The translations under genes and the position numbers were made by a program. The notes under the pieces were generated by a model that saw nothing but the letters and a program-made list of their open reading frames with translations, made no database searches and was not told where the DNA came from. Of a stretch of DNA of 35,669 nucleotides, positions 23,165 to 31,064 are shown one piece after another (position 1 is the first letter of the stretch; every line of letters begins with the position of its first letter). The stretch spans positions 1-35,669 of the forward strand of contig JAMPAU010000015.1 in NCBI GenBank assembly GCA_023667045.1. The letters run 5' to 3'. The DNA is from Ruminococcus flavefaciens (lineage in GTDB: Bacteria > Bacillota > Clostridia > Oscillospirales > Ruminococcaceae).

Positions 23165-23266
23165 TCAGACCGCACCGGTCATCATGTTCTGGAGAACAGG
23201 AACGAGGACGATTGCGAGGAGAATAAGTCCGAGACCTGACATAAGCTGTTTCATGCCCTGAGATTT
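23165..23266 (-). pseudogene. 3' fragment of maff2 left of the insertion
   Basis: The minus strand reads AAA TCT CAG GGC ATG, then KQLMSGLGLILLAIVLV, then PVLQNMMTGAV and a stop at 23165-23167. This is the second transmembrane helix and C-terminus of a Maff2-family protein. Its N-terminal part ends at GAK on the far side of the nested element (30762-31064). Joining the two at the shared TTT/AAA gives one in-frame protein of about 130 residues. The fragment has no plausible start of its own apart from an internal ATG. Confidence 0.85.
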
Positions 23267-23278
23267 AGGACAGGTGGC

Positions 23279-23291
23279 ATAGAGAAGTTTT
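23279..23291. repeat. Left near-terminal inverted repeat of the nested element
   Basis: ATAGAGAAGTTTT begins 13 bases inside the left end. Its inverted counterpart at 30747-30759 differs at one base. Such half-site symmetry is expected where a large serine recombinase binds both ends. Confidence 0.6.
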
Positions 23292-23640
23292 CAAGAAAAC
23301 ATTGTAAAACAGGCACAGCAAGCTAAATAATTACCGAAAAGACAACTTACAATGATTGGTAAGATTTATAACTATCGCCAAAGTAATATTTCTACTGTTG
23401 AGTTTTCTATGGAATGAAGTAAATTCTGCATACTCTTACCGAATACTACTATCTTCCACACATGCCTTGATATTCAAAGTGAAATCAAGGCTAATGATAT
23501 GAAAAGTTATATATAAAGCTGTCTTCAAAGGCAGAACAAAGATGGTGAGCTGATTACATAGAATGGTTCTGATCTATCTTAATGATTGAATGGGAGAGAA
23601 TTTCTAATTATGTTAAGTATCCTTTTTTACTATAAATGTG
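23292..23640. other. Non-coding stretch at the left end of the nested element
   Basis: About 350 bases between the left end and the restriction promoter show no supported gene on either strand; all frames have frequent stops. The stretch is AT-rich and has no obvious ribosome sites. It may be cargo-junction DNA brought in with the restriction-modification genes. Confidence 0.5.
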
Positions 23641-23690
23641 TTGACTTTTTCGTGTGTATGTGGTACAATAATATTGTAATATCTATTGTA
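23641..23690 (+). promoter_or_regulatory. Promoter and operator-like repeats of the restriction-modification operon
   Basis: TTGACT (23641-23646) and TACAAT (23664-23669) are separated by 17 bp. The -10 box is part of a perfect palindrome TACAATA-A-TATTGTA (23664-23678). A third TATTGTA lies at 23684-23690, 12 bases downstream of the second. A regulator binding these sites would block the promoter. The methyltransferase or an unlinked control protein could be that regulator. Confidence 0.75.
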
Positions 23691-23706
23691 AATAAGGAGG
23701 CTTACT

Positions 23707-24798
23707 ATGATTGAGAATCCAAGATTATTTGGAATCTTACATTCTAATCGAGATTACACACTTAAAGATACATGGGGAAAAAATCAGTTTAACTCATCAT
23801 TTCCCACTGCATTGGCGTGCTATCTTCATTCAAAAGGAATGAAAGCTATTTACTATAAAACGGATAACAAAATGACTAAAGTCATTTCACAAATAGGTAT
23901 TGATGAATTGTATGGTATTAATCCTTTAGGTGATTCGACGTATTTTTCGTTTGAAACACAATATACACCATTTCAGAAATATGTTACTGGCAGTATTCCA
24001 AGAAACGATCTTGTCATTCTTTCTAATGGTCAATGTTTATCATCATTAGAAATCAAGTTGGTTGCACTACCTGATAATCCTACTTGTGAATTGACTGATG
24101 ATCACTTTGGTTCTGAAATAGTAATACGTCCAGATACGATTATTTATCTTGCTTGTAGTTTTATACAGGCACTTGACGATAATCGAAAGATGATAAAAGC
24201 ACTTCTTGGAAATGATTGTGACAATCTCAACGATTGGACAGAGATAAATGATGTACTCCCACATACATATGAGATTTACAACGCAATAAAGAGAATAGTA
24301 GAAGCAAGTTATCGCAAGCAATTCCCAGTGGTTATGGAACCAGTATGGAAAACCGAAGGTAAGTCACCTAAACTCGCAGAAAACTGTCTTGATGTTTTTG
24401 TATGGAGTAACTGTGGTATTCTACTGTTATTTATGCCTTCAGATCATGACTTTATAGAAAATGCAGATGGTGTAAAATCACTCAAAAAAATCGGAAGACA
24501 TGAAAGAACCATGATATGGCTTTATAAAATGCTATTTGATTATGCTAATAATGGACATTTTGATGGTGGAAAAATCATTGATTTCTTAACATACAATACT
24601 AAGAATGATAAAGCATTCGCATCAAATGGACTTCGCACCCATCCGATAATGACCTGCCCTGAATTAACATCTCCAAGAATCACTAAAAAAGAAATAAAAA
24701 ACATAATCCTTGGTGTCGGTCAAAACCTTCTTAGCCCGGAAAGACGGTTCGATGCAATTATTTACAACTCGCCTGATCTATTTGAGGAGGAAACATGA
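23707..24798 (+). CDS. HindVP-like type II restriction endonuclease
   Basis: This 363-residue protein resembles the HindVP/HgiDI endonuclease family. The N-terminus is typical: LFGILHSNRDYTLKDTWGKN, then QFNSSFPTALACYL. A PD-(D/E)XK core is visible as D101 followed by E115-x-K117 (SSLEIKLV). HindVP-group enzymes cut GRCGYC; whether this one does is unproven. The ATG follows AAGGAGG. The stop overlaps the start of the C5 methyltransferase (ATGATGA), so both are made from one message. Endonuclease-first order with a likely operator is unusual and would need tight control on entry into a new host. Confidence 0.75.
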   Translation: MIENPRLFGILHSNRDYTLKDTWGKNQFNSSFPTALACYLHSKGMKAIYYKTDNKMTKVISQIGIDELYGINPLGDSTYFSFETQYTPFQKYVTGSIPRNDLVILSNGQCLSSLEIKLVALPDNPTCELTDDHFGSEIVIRPDTIIYLACSFIQALDDNRKMIKALLGNDCDNLNDWTEINDVLPHTYEIYNAIKRIVEASYRKQFPVVMEPVWKTEGKSPKLAENCLDVFVWSNCGILLLFMPSDHDFIENADGVKSLKKIGRHERTMIWLYKMLFDYANNGHFDGGKIIDFLTYNTKNDKAFASNGLRTHPIMTCPELTSPRITKKEIKNIILGVGQNLLSPERRFDAIIYNSPDLFEEET

Positions 24799-29019: not shown

Positions 29020-29048
29020 TTGAAAAGCTCGGAATATTGCGCTATAAT
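29020..29048 (+). promoter_or_regulatory. Promoter of the serine recombinase gene
   Basis: TTGAAA (29020-29025) and a perfect TATAAT (29043-29048) are 17 bp apart, 43 bp before the recombinase ATG. It allows the recombinase to be expressed independently of tnpW. Confidence 0.75.
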
Positions 29049-29091
29049 GATAACATAGCTTGCTGTATCTGTCAGAAAGAGAGGAAAAATT

Positions 29092-30714
29092 ATGGCAGAC
29101 AAGATTACAGCTTTATATTGCAGACTTTCGCAGGACGATATGTTGCAGGGCGAAAGTAATTCAATTACAAATCAGAAAACGATACTCAAAAAATATGCGG
29201 AAGATAACAGTTTTCGCAACACAAAGTTTTATGTCGATGACGGCGTTAGCGGTACGACTTTTGAACGTGACAGTTTCAAGGCTATGATGAACGATATTGA
29301 GGACGAAAAAGTCGGAATCGTAATTACAAAAGACCTTTCACGTCTTGGTCGTGATTATCTCAAAACGGGCGAACTTATTGAAATGACATTCCCCGATTAC
29401 GATGTGCGATATATCGCCATAAATGACGGCGTGGATACGTTCAAAAGTGAAAATGAGCTTATGGCATTCAAGAATATTTTCAACGACTGGTACGCCCGTG
29501 ACTGCTCGAAAAAAATCCGTGCCGTGTTCAAAGCTAAAGGACAGTCGGGAAAACATCTTTGTCCGCCGATATATGGCTACAAAAAGTCTGATACTGATAA
29601 AAATCTGTGGGTAATTGATGATGAGCCTGCGGAGGTCGTCCGCAAAATTTTCAGACTTTGCATTGACGGTTACGGTCCGACGCAGATTGCCCGTATTCTC
29701 ACGGAGCAAGGTATACCAACTCCGACGGCTTACGCACTTTCGCAGGGTAGAGATAATGGCAGACATAATGCTAAAACGCATCGTTGGGGTACGCAGACAA
29801 TCTGTCACATTCTTGAAAGGCTTGAATACTGCGGACATACGGTGAATTTCAGAACACATATGAAGTCCTATAAGGTGCATAAAATCGTGTATAATCCGCA
29901 GGACGAATGGCTGATTTTCGAGAATACTCACGAGCCTATTATTTCTCAGCAGGAATTTGACTTGGTGCAGGAAATCCGCAAAAACAAACGCAGACTTCAA
30001 AAGAAAGATGAGTTAAATCCATTTTCGGGAATGGTTTACTGTGCCGACTGCGGAGCGAAAATGTATCTGAGCCGACGTGTAAATGAACGTCCTGAACAGG
30101 AGCATATGCGATGTTCAACTTACGCAAAAGATACGAAAGAGTGTACCGTTCACTATATCAGGACTTGCGTTTTAAGGGAAATTGTCCTCGGTGAGCTGAA
30201 TAAACTTCTTGCTACTGTAAGTGAAAATGAGGGCGAATTTGTCAAGACAGCAATGAACAACTCCGTTCAGAAACAGTCCTCGGAGCTTACAAAAGCCAAA
30301 AAAACGCTGAAACAGGTGAAAAAGCGTATTTCTGAACTTGATAAACTGTTCAAAAGGCTTTATGAGGATAATGTTCTCGGAAAAATTTCAGATGAGCGTT
30401 TTTCAATTCTGTCCGCAGAGTATGAGGACGAACATAAAAAACTGAAGTCTATGGTTGCGGAATTATCGGCATTTATTGATACCGCTGAACAAAAATCAAG
30501 TGATGTGACAGCATTTGTCAAGCTGGTGCAGAAGTACGAAAATATTACTGAACTTACTCCCGAAATCATGCACGAACTTATTGAAAAAATCGTTGTTCAC
30601 GAAGCGGACAAATCAAGCGGAAAGCGTATTCAGCAGATTGATATTTACTTCCGCTTTGATGTTGCAGTTTCGAGCATTTCAACTGAAACAGTAAAATTCG
30701 GCAGGACTGCATAA
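29092..30714 (+). CDS. Large serine recombinase (TnpX/TndX-like)
   Basis: This 540-residue enzyme excises and integrates the nested element. The resolvase domain has the catalytic serine S13 in YCRLSQDD and the DLSRLGRDY motif near 83-91. A recombinase domain follows ([25 protein letters not shown]). A zinc ribbon starts at CADCGAKM near 315 and ends at paired cysteines. A long coiled coil lies near 390-470, and the C-terminal part resembles DUF4368. Length and order match Tn4451 TnpX relatives. AGAGAGGA precedes the ATG. The gene sits at the right end, 50-60 bp from the attachment site, as expected for the integrating enzyme. Confidence 0.92.
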
Positions 30715-30746
30715 CGCTGTGTTATGCGGTCTAAATTAAAAAATCA

Positions 30747-30759
30747 AAAACTTCTATAT
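30747..30759. repeat. Right near-terminal inverted repeat of the nested element
   Basis: AAAACTTCTATAT is the reverse complement of ATATAGAAGTTTT and matches the left-end repeat at 12 of 13 bases. It lies 12-14 bases inside the right end, at a similar distance to the left copy. It is read as part of the attachment site. Confidence 0.6.
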
Positions 30760-30761
30760 CG

Positions 30762-31064
30762 CTATGGTACTTTTGCGCCGGGGTTGTCGTTGCCGTAGCC
30801 TTCAAGGAGGTTGACCACGCCCCAGACACCGACACCGCCGCCGATAAGGCAGATAACGGACTTGAGGACGGTACAGGCTGTTGTGATGAACGAACTTGTA
30901 TCGACTTCACCTGTTGCTGCAAAAGCTGTTGTGCCACACATTGCAGCCATACAGCAGAGAGTTGTAAGTGAGAGAACGGCTTTTTTGGCGAATTTACTGC
31001 CTTTTGTGAGCCATCTGTGCTTTGGTGCTGTTGCAGAAACAGCAGAAACTGTTGAATTTTCCAT
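30762..31064 (-). pseudogene. 5' part of maff2, interrupted by the nested element
   Basis: This Maff2-family membrane protein is cut after GYGNDNPGAK and ends with two foreign residues (VP) and a stop supplied by the element. A signal peptide (about 30-49, ending TAFAA) and one transmembrane helix (VLKSVICLIGGGVGVWGVVN) remain. The second helix is on the other side of the insertion (23165-23266). Maff2-type proteins are small pilin- or VirB2-like components encoded beside VirD4 and VirB6. AAGGAG precedes the ATG at 9 bases. A (TAAAA) repeat lies just upstream. Confidence 0.85.

Follow-up and report, generated by a model that had tools for sequence, protein, structure and literature searches.

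A mobilizable serine-recombinase element within the maff2 gene of a Tn5252-like conjugative element from Ruminococcus: a probably removable block at a recurrent insertion site

What becomes of a conjugative element when a second mobile element settles in one of its genes? The question is raised by a contig of 35,669 nucleotides from Ruminococcus flavefaciens (GenBank JAMPAU010000015.1, assembly GCA_023667045.1; the window below is this one whole contig, also called C19), which encodes a Tn5252-like integrative and conjugative element (ICE). In this ICE, the gene maff2 is present in two parts separated by about 7.5 kb. A first-pass annotation of the DNA had read the intervening segment as a serine-recombinase mobilizable element nested in maff2, and had suggested that it may disable its own vehicle. 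The nesting holds: both halves match PF12750, and a relaxase, a MobC protein, and a recombinase are encoded between them. As for the vehicle, we favor, with a probability of roughly 0.8, a mobilizable element parked at a recurrent maff2 site of the ICE as a removable rather than a permanent block.

The N-terminal part of maff2 (30762..31064, minus strand) encodes a signal-like segment, the first hydrophobic stretch, and the loop as far as GAK; its open reading frame (ORF) terminates with ...GNDNPGAKVP-stop, the VP-stop lying in the element. The C-terminal part (23165..23266, minus strand) begins at the shared K codon and reads KSQGMKQLM...MTGAV-stop. Positions 30771-30893 match PF12750 at profile 2-42 (E 3.1e-16), and positions 23183-23269 match it at profile 41-69 (E 3.9e-7). 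The split lies after the GAK codons and before those of SQG, at a place that corresponds to the loop joining the two hydrophobic stretches of Maff2. In the Pfam search with PF12750, no full maff2 copy was present in the genome; the sole third match, on contig C50, is partial (9-42).

In the long-form relatives L132 to L136, a single continuous ORF runs through GAKSQGMKQLM, with zero residues gained or lost. In the one-contig genome of L132, the counterparts of the window flanks 21215-23274 and 30771-30926 are collinear and directly adjoining, with an 11 bp overlap. From the whole relatives and these collinear flanks, we infer that maff2 was once a single gene and that the 7.5 kb are an insertion. 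The frame-compatible junctions proposed in the first-pass annotation would then be correct, judging by relatives that read GAKSQGMKQ unbroken. The uninterrupted maff2 that it expected in related ICEs was sought and found there (L132 to L136), and two separate ORFs without the element, an arrangement that would speak against an insertion, were not seen in related ICEs. L138 has an unsplit long-form maff2, yet with an in-frame stop at another place. A DNA search for the empty site in 295 genomes of the order matched 32, mostly over ∼50-70 bases of the conserved loop.

At the junctions, a TTT (AAA in the sense of maff2) is shared between the N-half side (30771..30773) and the C-half side (23264..23266). 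The element is therefore placed at about 23267-30770 plus one AAA copy, and the limits given earlier (23264..30774) prove right within a few bases. Large serine recombinases act on a short (2 bp) core shared at the junctions. The window junctions share AAA, and a related junction in L066 shares exactly AA, narrowing the core; this AA fits a two-base serine-recombinase core. The inverted motif ACTTCTnTAT is present at both ends of the element.

The inserted segment (23267..30770, about 7.5 kb, delimited by gene content, the L132 empty site, and the junctions) has the features of an integrative and mobilizable element (IME), with its own large serine recombinase together with a relaxase and a NikA/MobC protein. 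The recombinase (29092..30714, plus strand; Pfam scan and tree) contains the Resolvase, Recombinase, and zinc-ribbon domains of large serine recombinases, and DUF4368. The MobA/VirD2 relaxase (26128..27540, minus strand; PF03432, 9.2e-32) is overlapped by the ORF of the NikA/MobC-like mobilization accessory protein (27354..28163, minus strand; PF21983, PF05713). As cargo, there is a HindVP-family type II restriction endonuclease (23707..24798, plus strand; PF09519, 3.6e-143) with its partner C5-cytosine DNA methyltransferase (24795..25724, plus strand; PF00145, 1.4e-71). A TnpW-like small protein (28768..29001, plus strand; PF14202, 3.2e-7) precedes the recombinase, and two small ORFs have no match in the Pfam scan, one at 25834..26115 (minus strand) and one upstream of tnpW and the recombinase (28468..28758, plus strand). 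Among the eight proteins scanned with Pfam between the maff2 halves, none is a protein of a type IV secretion system (T4SS) and none is a tet ribosomal protection protein. Inverted repeats within the element number 46 pairs, a count without a chance control.

Is maff2 a recurrent site? Among the 80 named related-recombinase loci kept of 121, a Maff2 part is found at the recombinase end in 15. In the recombinase tree (85 of 91 rows, leaving out the duplicate loci L140-L143 and the short matches L131 and L125), a clade of 25 with a Shimodaira-Hasegawa-like approximate likelihood ratio (SH-aLRT) support of 100 has 17 members in maff2 and 8 that are not. Of these 8, L051 and L064 do not reach past the boundary, and the others run into other sequence, L094 only after about ten maff2-like bases. 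The sister groups comprise 56 rows, none with maff2 in its locus. The remaining maff2 rows of the tree, L145 and L148-L150, are distant recombinases, fetched because maff2 is split there. Among the named loci, those with the closest recombinases are mostly from Ruminococcus and Oscillospiraceae genomes of gut and rumen.

Of 297 family genomes, 60 contain Maff2 matches, 139 in total, as 58 full copies, 47 N-halves, 28 C-halves, and 6 others, with contig borders possibly accounting for some of the halves. The N-halves end at profile positions 38-51, most commonly at 43 (n = 19), and 21 N/C pairs lie on a single contig with spacings of 2.7 to 46 kb. In IMG/VR, Maff2 matches are found in 48 loci, where N-half ends such as GAN-AHVR, NDN-RATRS, and KQFMAN indicate several kinds of insert. 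One further kind is the group II intron. Rfam (RF02004 and RF00029) and a maturase identify the ∼2.75 kb insert of L146 (3292-6000) as a group II intron; in L192 (8121-10859), an insert of ∼2.75 kb within this maff2 loop has a group II intron maturase. The inserts of L147, L193, and some other loci have the spacing of that in L146 and may likewise be introns. The intron site is a few codons away from the IME site in the loop.

The cargo at the maff2 site varies between restriction-modification (RM) genes, CBM2/LRR-dockerin proteins, an esterase, an ABC ATPase, and a methyltransferase. In L131 (7987-10515), from the same genus, the maff2 site is occupied by an element with CBM2/TSP3 and LRR-dockerin proteins, a cellulosome-like cargo. 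Defence cargo as a rule was considered and dropped, because PADLOC found nothing in the five cargo ORFs scanned from L020 and L131. Two or three maff2 copies lie close together in the ICEs L199, L200, L203, L211, L220, L152, L154, and L164; such multiple copies could buffer an insertion.

The same genome has a second element of the clade, L020 (contig C50, 1-10276), with a recombinase 95% identical to that of the window and flanked by maff2 ends that break at the codon used in the window. Its cargo differs from that of the window element and an extra small resolvase is present; the large cargo ORFs of L020 have no Pfam and no PADLOC match. Elsewhere in the genome, contig C15 encodes an unrelated T4SS (VirD4 41% and VirB4 42% identical, with an 831-amino-acid VirB4 frame), a conjugative system that could act as a helper. 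In all, 34 serine-recombinase matches occur in the genome; on C33 and on C15, some of them stand three in a row.

The host ICE was described from a Pfam scan of 37 of the 115 window ORFs of at least 60 amino acids. It encodes VirD4, Maff2, a methyltransferase-like protein, VirB6, PrgI, VirB4, a CD1107-like protein, a topoisomerase, and others. ICEs of the Tn5252 superfamily have the gene order virD4, maff2, virB6, prgI, virB4, and the window ICE has this same order, with flanks collinear with L132. On the minus strand are found the VirD4/TraG coupling protein (31155..33110; PF02534), the methyltransferase-like gene downstream of maff2 (22515..23096; PF13651, 1.9e-8, a short match), VirB6/TrbL_2 (21599..22540; Pfam scan), PrgI (21218..21589; Pfam scan), and virB4 (18731..21196). 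In the last, an in-frame stop just ahead of the ATP-binding part separates an N-terminal ORF (19838-21196) from a C-terminal one (18731-19801); in L131 and L132, virB4 is one ORF of 813 amino acids. The SNF2 helicase, a Tn5252-superfamily gene (PMC5357655), is not named among the 37 ORFs, no search having been aimed at it, and Pfam names no drug-resistance gene among them. The first-pass annotation had also read the insertion as cutting the genes downstream of maff2 off from their upstream promoter; the promoter scan gave 30 sigma-70-like matches vs. 23.8 (standard deviation 4.5) in shuffled sequences, and terminator-like matches were 12 vs. 6.1 (standard deviation 2.7), neither being tied to a function.

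The window element joins a published class. Serine IMEs are reported in traG, maff2, and snf2 of Tn5252-superfamily ICEs, with two sites in maff2 (Coluzzi and colleagues 2017, PMC5357655). There, it was proposed that an insertion in maff2 would block conjugation and that excision on induction would restore it. The mechanism suggested in the first-pass annotation is in this respect a published hypothesis. Like the window element, the streptococcal IMESp2907 and IME_ScoC232_maff2_site1 are serine IMEs disrupting maff2 of a Tn5252-type ICE, for which gene-restoring excision is proposed and, for ICESp2905 with IMESp2907, transfer was assayed (PMC5357655, PMC5704250). ICESp2905, with its IME in maff2, yields three kinds of transconjugants and transfers with or without that IME (PMC5704250, 2017 review, section 3.5). 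The window element differs from these two in its Ruminococcus-like gut host and its type II RM cargo. The Tn6104-type IMEs of Clostridioides difficile are likewise serine IMEs, and the ICEs that they occupy are Tn5252-related, but the conjugation gene that they target is traG (VirD4) and not maff2 (PMC5704250). IME_Rho_tet, defined by a recombinase at least 85% similar to that of R. hominis A2-183, has 116 of its 256 reconstructed sites in MAFF2 ORFs, and an ICE that matches but lacks IME_Rho_tet is reported in Dorea (Sidibe et al. 2026, PMC12904643). It shares with the window element the serine recombinase, relaxase, and mobC, whereas it carries tet ribosomal-protection genes and has all ORFs in one direction; the window element has RM genes and ORFs in both directions (PMC12904643). 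A Maff-2 beside tet(W) has been noted (PMC6868206). Akin in their mode of working are the fdxN element with XisF (the recombinase matches the XisF model at 112.9 bits, far under the model cut-off of 375 bits) and prophages that excise when the host gene is needed (PMC5357655): as proposed for the window element, an interrupted gene would be regained through precise excision.

The cycle that we propose would run as follows. By exchange at the AA core, the recombinase would join the attP of the circular element to the attB of maff2; as long as the element stays integrated, transfer of the host ICE would be off, and excision would restore maff2 precisely. After nicking by the relaxase that it encodes, the element could then exit via the host ICE or via another conjugative system, such as the T4SS of C15. 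The type II RM genes would be exchangeable cargo and could serve as an addiction module upon excision of the element; toxin-antitoxin and type II RM are named as addiction systems of ICEs (PMC5704250).

Several observations weigh against a removable block, and a number of them would suit permanent damage, in which the insertion kills the ICE and the element, stranded in a decaying ICE, survives only via other helpers. As assembled, the window ICE has no working conjugation module, maff2 being split and virB4 broken by the in-frame stop. Because of that stop, this ICE is probably non-functional as a vehicle regardless of maff2, unless the stop is an assembly error. Another conjugative system is present in the genome, and such IMEs sit in many decayed streptococcal ICEs (PMC5357655). 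The circular junction of the element was found in none of 396 family genomes and in no IMG/VR contig, a weak null since the pattern was exact (partly degenerate) and the excised form is rare. The remainder of the C50 ICE is absent from the assembly, in which VirB6 has a single match and neither VirD4 nor VirB4 has another close one. Near-identical recombinases occur in maff2 and at other sites (L053/L085 and L058/L061), suggesting secondary attachment sites. Against permanent damage, 18 of the 22 split loci that could be evaluated have an unbroken virB4, vs. 36 of 40 unsplit ones (Fisher p 0.44); without the four 2.75 kb intron-type loci, the split count is 14 of 18 (p 0.24). At this sample size, a modest difference between split and unsplit is still possible. 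For this count, three rows that repeat a locus were merged among the 29 split rows (L147/L251, L149/L257, L148/L258), four split loci without a virB4 match were dropped (L148/L258, L244, L246, L254), and six of the 46 unsplit rows were not evaluable (L134, L135, L136, L209, L232, L233). The interrupted virB4 genes are those of the window, L239, L241, and L253 among the split loci and of L138, L212, L224, and L226 among the unsplit. The C-halves of maff2 are kept open (24 of 28 stop-free, the remaining four open from profile 41 or 45 onward), and ICESp2905 transfers (PMC5704250). Permanent damage is thus an unlikely account. As a separate observation, the virB4 breaks coincide in two pairs of loci, L226 with L239 (profile ∼301-303, by ∼2.4 kb) and L224 with L241 (profile 697, by ∼0.26 kb), and these are perhaps further insertion sites.

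Alternatively, Maff2 may be dispensable, the insertion being a neutral safe harbor by which nothing is switched. This would agree with the family counts (47 N-halves, 58 full copies), with the two or three maff2 copies of some ICEs, and with the one type of ICESp2905 transconjugant that is the whole ICE with both IMEs (PMC5704250). Next to virB6, a maff2 match lies within 2.5 kb upstream of 74 of the 84 above-cut-off matches (46 full, 27 C-half, 1 damaged), which speaks against dispensability. The other 10, which would suit a dispensable Maff2, have none within 2.5 kb, several of them being partial or at contig starts, and all 7 below-cut-off virB6 matches also lack a nearby maff2; these again count against our preferred reading. 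An early statement that maff2 is never lost beside virB6 (30 of 30 loci) had counted only the loci returned for better matches, and was withdrawn because a recount of all 91 virB6 matches gave 17 without maff2. The sequence of maff2 is conserved, with a nearest-neighbor ratio of nonsynonymous to synonymous substitution (dN/dS) of 0.15 for 22 split vs. 0.11 for 84 whole sequences; the pattern used to choose these sequences admits open frames only, and most of their divergence may predate the insertion, a further point against our preferred reading. With the weak likeness of Maff2 to T4SS pilins added, a dispensable Maff2 is also unlikely. An artefact of assembly or binning that unites unrelated sequence could be imagined for a draft assembly of 3.64 Mb in 112 contigs with a contamination estimate of 4.84%; with both halves in the same arrangement in the independent assemblies L059, L062, L066, and L131, and with continuous synteny of the flanking ICE, it is very improbable.

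The removable block is thus the reading to which we return. With maff2 usually kept but interrupted in about one third to almost half of cases, and virB4 mostly kept, these comparisons favor a reversible block over a dead end. Of the suggestion that the element disables its own vehicle, one part stands, namely that it splits a T4SS-linked gene: maff2 adjoins those 74 virB6 matches and its product is weakly T4SS_pilin-like, in line with the earlier naming of Maff2 as a T4SS component. Permanent disabling is unsupported, given the commonness of the insertion, the virB4 counts, and the transfer of ICESp2905 (PMC5704250).

What may Maff2 be? The core has ∼70 amino acids, with two hydrophobic stretches flanking a polar loop, and a signal-like start in the long form (hydropathy of L132 only). 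T4SS pilins of the VirB2/TrbC kind have two hydrophobic stretches, a short polar loop, a core of ∼70 amino acids, and a signal-like start. Among 20 Maff2 proteins, 14 match T4SS_pilin (PF18895), one TrbC/VirB2, and three DUF4134. When 10 were searched directly, T4SS_pilin was matched by 7, at up to 20.5 bits vs. a cut-off of 26.6, and by none of these 10 after reversal. Maff2 is on this basis weakly T4SS_pilin-like. The rest tells against a pilin. The T4SS_pilin matches listed (the best of the 14 at 1.6e-4) are below the curated Pfam cut-off of PF18895. Three of the reversed sequences match other families weakly, and single Maff2 members match AA_permease_2 (4.5e-4), DUF2721 (4.9e-4), and DUF308 (9.1e-4) at values comparable to the pilin. 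L132, a long form like the maff2 of the window, has no T4SS_pilin match and a weak NCBIfam match to MusI. A profile search of the PDB with Maff2 returned six chains at E 0.27 or worse, from photosystems and antibodies. The idea of a gate draws on the use of two positions by no fewer than three recombinase lineages, and on the group II introns. It is a tentative and rather doubtful proposal that Maff2 would be the conjugative pilin of a large class of Gram-positive ICEs, its loop a recurrent dock for unrelated self-removing elements, and that nested elements would gate ICE transfer reversibly, the pilin gene being closed as long as they are in place and reopened by excision or splicing.

In the available text of PMC5357655, PMC5704250, and PMC12904643, neither "pilin" nor "VirB2" occurs, and the single "intron" is a remark in the methods. 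The fresh leads that the window element brings to the published class of maff2 serine IMEs are Maff2 as a possible pilin and a loop common to these IMEs and group II introns. The function of MAFF2 is called unknown in PMC12904643, and the pilin-like reading would hand this protein a testable role. In gut bacteria, serine IMEs lodged in maff2 have been described as vectors of resistance genes (PMC12904643), so that the spread of such cargo would depend on whether the host ICE is blocked or gated.

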